A stretch of 64,000 nucleotides of DNA from positions 1 to 64,000 of the forward strand of contig JAFWSJ010000015.1 of the NCBI GenBank assembly GCA_017524405.1, read 5' to 3'. This document shows positions 21,825 through 35,290 of this stretch, piece by piece; the first letter of the stretch is position 1, and every line of letters begins with the position of its first letter. Both the position numbers and the translations under genes were made by a program. The notes beneath the pieces were generated by a model that was not told the DNA's origin, ran no database searches, and saw only the letters and a program-made list of their open reading frames with translations. The DNA comes from Candidatus Saccharimonadota bacterium (GTDB lineage Bacteria > Patescibacteriota > Saccharimonadia > Saccharimonadales > Saccharimonadaceae).

Positions 21825-21856
21825 AAAAATGAGGCCCATCGGGTCTCCTTTTTTGT
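21825..21856. terminator. Terminator between HD gene and tRNA-Ser module
   Basis: GAGGCCC/GGGTCTC stem with ATC loop, A-rich on one side and T-rich on the other; usable from both strands. Confidence 0.75.
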
Positions 21857-21866
21857 TCTGGCGGAG

Positions 21867-21942
21867 AGAACAGGATATAAACAATGCGCCGTTGCCGCAA
21901 GCGGCCGGGCATTGGACGAACCTTGGGCTCTCATCCTGTTCT
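21867..21942 (-). ncRNA. Structured module A, 3' of tRNA-Ser(GGA)
   Basis: A 76-nt segment read on the minus strand after the tRNA and its hairpin. A 10-bp outer stem (21867-21876 with 21933-21942) encloses a core nearly identical to module B at 35086-35161. The core runs GAGCCCAAGGTTCGTCC, then a CAATGC/GCATTG stem with an inner hairpin capped by CTTG. The outer stem has exactly the sequence of the neighbouring tRNA's T-stem/acceptor 3' strand. Stems covary between A and B. No protein-coding pattern is convincing. Identity unknown; could be an RNA or a DNA integration site. Confidence 0.6.
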
Positions 21943-21944
21943 AG

Positions 21945-21983
21945 CAGAACAAAAATACAACCCTGCGGGTTGTCTTCTTGTTC
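21945..21983. terminator. Terminator 3' of tRNA-Ser(GGA)
   Basis: ACAACCC/GGGTTGT stem with TGC loop, flanked by an outer GAAC/GTTC pairing and by T-runs on both strands; it lies directly after the tRNA CCA on the minus strand. Confidence 0.8.
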
Positions 21984-22073
21984 TGGCGGAGAGAACAGGA
22001 TTCGAACCTGCGAGAGCCTTGCGACCCTACACGCTTTCCAAGCGTGCTCCTTAAACCACTCGGACATCTCTCC
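21984..22073 (-). tRNA. tRNA-Ser(GGA)
   Basis: 90 nt with encoded CCA. The acceptor GGAGAGA/TCTCTCC, a long variable arm typical of Ser, T-loop TTCGAAT and anticodon loop CTTGGAAAG give anticodon GGA (reads UCC/UCU). Confidence 0.96.
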
Positions 22074-35041: not shown

Positions 35042-35085
35042 ATTACCACCTCCTTAAGGTACAAAGATACGCAGATTATACCAAA

Positions 35086-35161
35086 GCGAGAGGATATAAA
35101 CAATGCGCCGTCGTCGCTAACGCGACCGGGCATTGGCGAACCTGGGCTCGACCCCTCTCGC
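35086..35161 (-). ncRNA. Structured module B, 3' of tRNA-Ser(CGA)
   Basis: The second 76-nt copy of module A. The core GAGCCCAGGTTCGCC, the CAATGC/GCATTG stem and the GTTTATATCC end are conserved. The inner hairpin differs in sequence but still pairs (GTCGC/GCGAC, loop GTTA). The outer stem is now GCGAGAGG/CCTCTCGC, again identical to the 3' T-stem region of its own neighbouring tRNA. So three stems have changed in a compensatory way between copies. Confidence 0.6.
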
Positions 35162-35164
35162 GCA

Positions 35165-35202
35165 GAATAAAAATACAACCCAAAGGGTTGTCTTTTTTAT
35201 TC
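35165..35202. terminator. Terminator 3' of tRNA-Ser(CGA)
   Basis: ACAACCC/GGGTTGT stem as at tRNA-Ser(GGA), with loop AAA and outer GAAT/ATTC pairing; T-runs on both strands. Confidence 0.8.
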
Positions 35203-35290
35203 TGGCGGAAGCGAGAGGATTCGAACCTCCGAGACATTGCTGCCCACACGATTTCGAGTCGTGCGCCTTCAACCACTCGGCCACGCTTCC
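35203..35290 (-). tRNA. tRNA-Ser(CGA)
   Basis: 88 nt with encoded CCA. Acceptor GGAAGCG/CGCTTCC, long variable arm, T-loop TTCGAAT; anticodon loop CTCGAAA gives CGA (reads UCG). Confidence 0.96.

Follow-up and report, generated by a model that had tools for sequence, protein, structure and literature searches.

Structured repeat units with an RtT-type layout behind tRNA genes of Saccharibacteria

The repeat unit behind tRNA-Ser(GGA)

The window analyzed here is a 64,000-nucleotide stretch of a Candidatus Saccharimonadota genome (contig JAFWSJ010000015.1, positions 1 to 64,000), which encodes on the minus strand a tRNA-Ser(GGA) that is followed, from the first base past the CCA, by a 125-bp repeat unit of the type denoted class A below (Table 1). 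The initial annotation of this locus described a terminator-like hairpin 3' of the tRNA with a 76-nt module behind it, an outer 10-bp stem with the T-stem/acceptor sequence of the tRNA, and a direct repeat of the tRNA 3' end, and all of these are present. The module is a stem-loop on the minus strand that consists, from 5' to 3', of AGAACAGGAT, GAGAGCCC, AAGGTTCG, the core hairpin CAATGCCCGG...ACGGCGCATTG with a bulged C, TTTAT and ATCCTGTTCTCTCCGCCA, and its outer stem is formed by AGAACAGGAT and ATCCTGTTCT (21933-21942 and 21867-21876). The direct repeat comprises 24 exact base pairs, or 27 with one mismatch, at a spacing of 125 bp (21850-21876 and 21975-22001); the probability of a chance 24-mer repeat inside a few hundred bases is negligible. 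Three features go beyond that annotation: the terminator lies inside the repeat unit, the copy of the T-arm 5' half, AAGGTTCG, lies ahead of the core hairpin, and the window contains a second copy of the unit, which is matched to another serine tRNA.

Table 1. Positions of the two class A units of the window and of their parts
Feature	Position	Strand	Remark
tRNA-Ser(GGA), host gene	21984-22073	-	CCA encoded
Repeat unit, class A, 125 bp	21859-21983	-	first base past the tRNA CCA to the CCA of the copy
Intrinsic terminator hairpin	21957-21973	-	ACAACCC-GCA-GGGTTGT + ATTTTTG, in the interval between tRNA and module; terminator scan
5' arm AGAACAGGAT	21933-21942	-	inverted copy of the T-stem/acceptor 3' strand of the tRNA
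GAGAGCCC + AAGGTTCG	21917-21932	-	inverted T-arm remainder + direct copy of the T-arm 5' half
Constant core hairpin	21882-21914	-	CAATGCCCGG-variable terminal stem-ACGGCGCATTG, one bulged C
3' arm ATCCTGTTCTCTCCGCCA	21859-21876	-	repeats directly the final 18 nt of the tRNA, from T-loop nt 60 to CCA
Second terminator-like hairpin, past the end of the unit	21831-21847		scan reports + strand; on the - strand ATTTTTG follows
tRNA-Ser(CGA), host of the second unit	35203-35290	-	
Second class A unit	35084-35202	-	matched to tRNA-Ser(CGA)
Terminator of the second unit	35175-35191	-	
5' arm of the second unit	35154-35161	-	GCGAGAGG
Core hairpin of the second unit	35101-35135	-	
3' arm of the second unit	35084-35095	-	ATCCTCTCGCTT

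The predicted RNA fold of a 94-nt segment is more stable than 199 of 200 shuffled sequences (z -3.3), that of the 76-nt module by itself is more stable than all 200 (z -4.4), and the DNA fold of the module beats 199 of 200 (z -3.9); an additional small hairpin, GAGCC/GGTTC, is possible in the predicted fold within 21917-21932 of the minus strand. The core was correctly described as non-coding, in that it contains no convincing open reading frame in the window unit and the antisense frames differ among copies. No promoter was seen behind the terminator of the window copy. The second terminator-like hairpin, at 21831-21847, may once have been the terminator of the tRNA or may be left over from another unit.

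Two classes of units and their match to the host tRNA

A third class A unit is present on another contig of the same genome; the tRNA in front of it is cut by the contig end and has a tRNA-Gln-like 3' end. With a covariance model built from 25 copies (R1), class A was detected behind eight tRNA species in 27 of the 37 genomes sampled from the genus, and in none of the 24 genomes of other families that were scanned. Across 393 genomes of the order, strong matches are confined to the genus and weak ones occur mainly in its sister genera within the family, and in named genomes the exact core tail occurs in 34 stretches, all of them from Saccharibacteria records. In the sister-genus copies the layout is retained, and the core stem either shows compensatory changes (CAATG/CATTG, TAATG/CATTA, TATTG/CAATA, ATCCG/CGGAT) or is replaced by other hairpins. 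Among 79 distinct class A copies, 51 have a detected upstream tRNA of eight species (Gln-TTG 14, Ser-GGA 9, Lys-CTT 8, Ser-CGA 7, Gln-CTG 6, Arg-TCG 3, Glu-CTC 3 and Arg-CCG 1), and single units are gene-less and 105-208 bp long. In two cases (L209 of G029 and L006 on contig C11 of the source genome), a short hairpin-forming insertion (TTTGCTTGCAAATTGCCCGGAGGGC) lies between the class A core and the 3' arm.

A scan for copies of tRNA ends behind any tRNA of the collected loci yielded a second, longer type of unit, class B, which in the source genome follows tRNA-Ala(CGC), tRNA-Gly(TCC) and tRNA-Val(TAC) (L012, L018 and L024). Its model (R2) detects it in 32 of the 37 genomes of the genus, where the hosts are Tyr, Gly, Glu, Val, Ala, Ser-TGA, Lys and Leu tRNAs; examples at tRNA-Tyr come from relatives of the source genome (L253, L255). 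Class B units are 172-194 bp long, share the interior GGAGCCGAGCGAAA-hairpin-TTTTCCGAGGCGACGCC and carry the full 18-nt copy in 16 of 28 cases. At least one unit of either class is present in 33 of the 37 genomes, and a literature search found no published description of such units in Saccharibacteria.

The arms of each class A unit follow the tRNA behind which it is located. In the 51 copies with a detected tRNA, the perfect match of the 3' arm has a median length of 18 nt to the copy's own tRNA versus 4 nt to other species, and the T-loop base mostly tracks the host (A in Ser and most Gln, G in most Lys, C in Glu). The arms of the same unit are complementary far above swapped arms (permutation z 11.9), with poor complementarity in Gln-CTG, some Glu and some Gln-TTG copies, and in 70 of 76 copies the base before GG in the T-arm half copy and the T-stem base covary. 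The nearest neighbors by 5'-arm sequence share the same tRNA in 95% of cases, with 18% expected; judging from this common tRNA of 5'-arm neighbors, class A units are target-specific lineages.

The fold covaries as well. On 74 distinct rows, 92.9% of the cells are paired, compared to 78.5% in shuffles, and the covariation score is 0.389, compared to 0.138 in shuffled and at most 0.089 in slid versions, figures that lean towards structure as the alignment was fitted to the model; the core helix is paired in 98.4%, and 8 of its 13 pairs are changed on both sides. Neither condition that the initial annotation named as refuting, a lack of further copies next to tRNA genes or loss of the stem, holds: such copies exist by the dozen, and the stem is retained and covaries. 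Roughly half of the class A copies reach the end of the CCA; others are often decayed after 10-16 nt, and most of these retain the first 9-16 nt, that is, the stem part.

Possible insertion at tRNA 3' ends and the search for an enzyme

In one genome (G032, L060), the CCA of tRNA-Ser(GGA) is joined directly to the flank that follows the unit in two relatives (L199 and L185), with 96.8% identity over approximately 250 bp, and the difference is exactly one 130/132-bp unit. This pair reveals a discrete unit with the tRNA 3' end as its boundary, and it does not give the direction of the change; a deletion between the 18-bp repeats could produce the same pair. In places, namely at Gln, Ser and Lys tRNAs, two or three units stand in tandem; such arrays can be the result of ordinary recombination. 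At the end of one contig (G019 contig C2, 1-330; L067/L168), at least three identical 105-bp units follow tRNA-Gln(TTG) in tandem, and in the actual genome this array is probably longer.

We consider the chances about even that these units are RtT-like (see below) structured elements which are small non-autonomous insertions at tRNA 3' ends. A non-coding, gene-less unit that sits exactly past the CCA, usually with its own terminator, and ends in an approximately 18-nt copy of the tRNA would then be an element that enters the T-loop-to-CCA segment of tRNA genes, and the 18-nt copy would be the target's own 3' end, displaced by the insertion. The terminator of the unit would keep the tRNA transcript intact, and a cellular enzyme would recognize the folded single strand with its tRNA-sequence outer stem, junction and bulged core hairpin. 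Both proposals of the initial annotation, a small element at the tRNA 3' end and a tRNA-linked structured RNA, survive in the present analysis; its term "mobile" is partly supported, by one precise presence/absence pair, while the recombinase searches pointed to no enzyme.

Against insertion stand the absence of a co-occurring recombinase, of a cargo gene and of any chimeric tRNA such as the insertion of a foreign 3' end is expected to produce. Most of the 24 genomes searched for tyrosine recombinases (PF00589) have a single gene, which is Xer-like, including two genomes with seven class A units each, and the Xer-like protein is the only integrase present in all 24. Serine recombinases (PF00239) have a patchy distribution across genomes, and the Y1 transposase (PF01797) is absent in 11 of 12 genomes tested and stop-interrupted in the remaining one; an association of the units with any of these three families was rejected as inconsistent. 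A search for the host dif site by the general dif pattern gave no consistent match, and no match to the class A core was found in viral contigs. The idea that a foreign 3' end takes the place of the tRNA's own was rejected, since among the differing cases the tRNA's own acceptor stem pairs equally well as or better than the displaced copy, the sole exception involving a single G-U pair. The genes behind the units form no common set, and integron-like cassette arrays were discarded: the gene-spaced modules (G005:C41, G017:C9, G021:C12) have differing segments, some ends of which are the tails of other integrative elements. One genome (G027, L146 5797-7008) encodes a second tyrosine integrase (358 aa); its gene lies immediately upstream of tRNA-Arg(TCG) and belongs to a larger integrative element close to a unit.

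At several loci (L148 3159-7297, L149, L228, L151 and L152), the junction of a foreign segment coincides with the CCA copy of a unit; one of these segments encodes the C-terminus of a large serine recombinase, the coding sequence of which seemingly runs across the attachment point (tails GERCRELIDAADE... and WLGKIKQALTIYKE...). Transfer RNA 3' ends are classic integration sites, and each unit might be the relic of a collapsed larger integrative element, or of a passive foldback or tandem duplication of the tRNA 3' end. The fragments of larger elements that adjoin CCA copies and the 5' arm, which is an inverted copy of the T-arm, are compatible with such an origin, but independent collapses would not give, in 27 genomes and behind eight tRNA species, one and the same core hairpin with its compensatory changes, nor are two classes of fixed lengths expected, and we regard this origin as very unlikely. 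Even less probable, to the point of being barely credible, is that the host keeps the unit as a spare landing site, a second tRNA 3' end past the terminator at which incoming integrative elements spare the tRNA transcript: the foreign segments do join the CCA copy of the unit and not that of the tRNA, but the CCA part is lost in many copies and the conserved core hairpin is left unexplained.

Relation to RtT and other known systems

RtT has mostly been regarded as an sRNA from the tyrT operon of E. coli and from other gammaproteobacterial tRNA loci. The initial annotation knew of no described family with the layout found here; RtT (Rfam RF00391) has it. The E. coli tyrT region contains, in this order, GGGGAAGGAT, GAGAAGC, AAGGTTCGA, hairpins and AATCCTTCCCCCACCACCA, with a closing stem of 10 bp and a repeat period of 178 bp as measured in that region. 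As in Saccharibacteria, the E. coli repeats are located directly 3' of the tRNA gene, in tandem, each ending in AATCC...CCA from the tRNA; the 5' arm GGGGAAGGAT pairs with ATCCTTCCCC over 10 bp, comparable to the approximately 10-bp closing stem here, and AGGATGAGAAGC...AAGGTTCGA is the counterpart of AGGATGAGAGCC...AAGGTTCG in the Saccharibacteria unit. A copy of the tRNA end (approximately the last 19 bp) directly 3' of its own tRNA, often in tandem, thus characterizes both. They differ in the terminator between tRNA and unit on the Saccharibacteria side, in the hosts (many tRNA species compared to tRNA-Tyr in E. coli) and in the interior, which is about 80 nt long in E. coli, whereas the class A core of about 45 nt is different and class B is partly similar. 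Class B, with a period of 172-194 bp, is closer to E. coli RtT than class A is: R2 ranks an E. coli RtT copy second in 67 kb, at 15.6 bits with a weak E value of 0.09, and R1 does not single out E. coli RtT.

In a permissive Rfam search, the window copy aligns with RtT end to end at 23.1 bits (E ~0.01), below the threshold of 45, and the best score over 13 genomes, 29.1 bits, is also below this curated threshold; the top genome-wide matches fall on tRNA-linked units in three genomes (G019, G022 and G009) and not in a fourth (G030). The Saccharibacteria unit is built like RtT and would work like it; its scores of 23-29 bits leave it outside the formal family, for which 45 are required. Common descent and convergence are both possible, because much of the common sequence follows from the universal T-arm. 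The RtT-type layout looks like a wider class and more than a curiosity of E. coli. RtT RNAs were detected near tRNA genes in Actinobacillus and have been reported near other tRNAs in Pasteurellaceae (PMC4986893), and the rtT repeat is of variable size in Salmonella (PMC2658671). E. coli RtT was not found in phage records; one contig of a viral collection (L257, IMGVR_UViG_2713896729_000008) carries two tandem E. coli-type RtT repeats.

The presumed relative in E. coli is known as an RNA, which by analogy weighs against the insertion reading. The units could be structured RNAs, as has been proposed for E. coli RtT, that are transcribed by read-through from the tRNA promoter, released by tRNA processing, selected for their fold as RNA and spread only by duplication and descent, an explanation that we hold to be possible but clearly less probable than insertion. 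It agrees with the annotation of E. coli RtT as an sRNA processed from the tyrT transcript and with the RNAs of Actinobacillus cited above, and the RNA folds are strong (z -4.4 for one copy of each class). That the stem part persists in copies with a decayed CCA part suggests that the units are constrained where they stand and are not a neutral footprint, and this too speaks for a structured RNA and against insertion. G-T pairs outnumber A-C pairs 21:8 outside the outer stem (p 0.024), as expected for a folded tRNA-sense strand, but over all pairs the ratio is just 53:37 (p 0.11). A terminator was detected ahead of the module in at least 42 of the 51 class A units, with the window copy lacking a visible promoter behind it, and an RNA function alone would leave unexplained the 3' copies that run through the CCA.

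Among DNA elements, integron attC sites share with the units a folded palindrome, an outer stem, an unpaired spacer, an inner stem carrying an extrahelical base, and a terminal structure that varies. In place of the GTTRRRY box, however, the units have GTTTATA; an IntI-type integrase and gene cassettes are absent, with a single Xer-like integrase in most genomes; and the constancy is reversed, in that the outer arms are variable and matched to the tRNA whereas the inner stem is constant. Integrative elements of the tyrosine integrase type that target tRNA genes likewise have an identity block from the T-loop to the CCA, the tRNA 3' end copied at their far side and empty sites with one intact tRNA 3' end, as in the pair described above, but the units, usually of 105-210 bp, contain neither integrase nor cargo and have a conserved fold. 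REP/BIME sequences and their RAYT transposases, to which rtT-like sequences have been linked (PMC2965389), are comparable as small, dispersed, palindromic extragenic units; those considered here are bound to tRNA 3' ends, have tRNA-matched arms and occur where 11 of 12 genomes lack a Y1 transposase.

A specific version of the DNA reading is that the folded strand is an attC-like substrate of a tyrosine recombinase, either the host Xer or one acting in trans, with the T-arm/acceptor segment of the tRNA as the target, by analogy with attC x attI. The arrangement of outer stem, junction, core stem with a bulged base and variable terminal loop fits this version, as do the spacer between core stem and tRNA arm, which is nearly always TTTAT on one strand and variable in length on the other, the single-stranded DNA folds of several copies, and the Xer-like protein as the sole integrase common to all 24 genomes. 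The missing box, IntI and cassettes point the other way; the folds of the Lys, the Gln(CTG) and one Gln(TTG) copy as single-stranded DNA are not clearly better than shuffles; and an exchange at G^TT would not give the products that are seen, as the sequence shared with the tRNA starts only to the right of the T-loop (tRNA GTTCGA, module GTTTAT). We deem this version unlikely. A somewhat better, still low, probability is assigned to the broader conjecture that RtT-like units are minimal mobile elements found across phyla, and that a host enzyme, for which Xer is the only universal candidate, recombines their folded strand, with its outer stem of host-tRNA sequence, into tRNA 3' ends in an attC-like manner.

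The presence of the RtT layout in Saccharibacteria, at many tRNAs and with every copy written to fit its own tRNA, suggests that the class is general and makes its origin testable. Dozens of natural copies with matched arms, the tandem arrays and an empty site make insertion, fold and transcription separable. For the annotation of tRNA genes in streamlined genomes, the units add a recurrent feature that is currently read as spacer.
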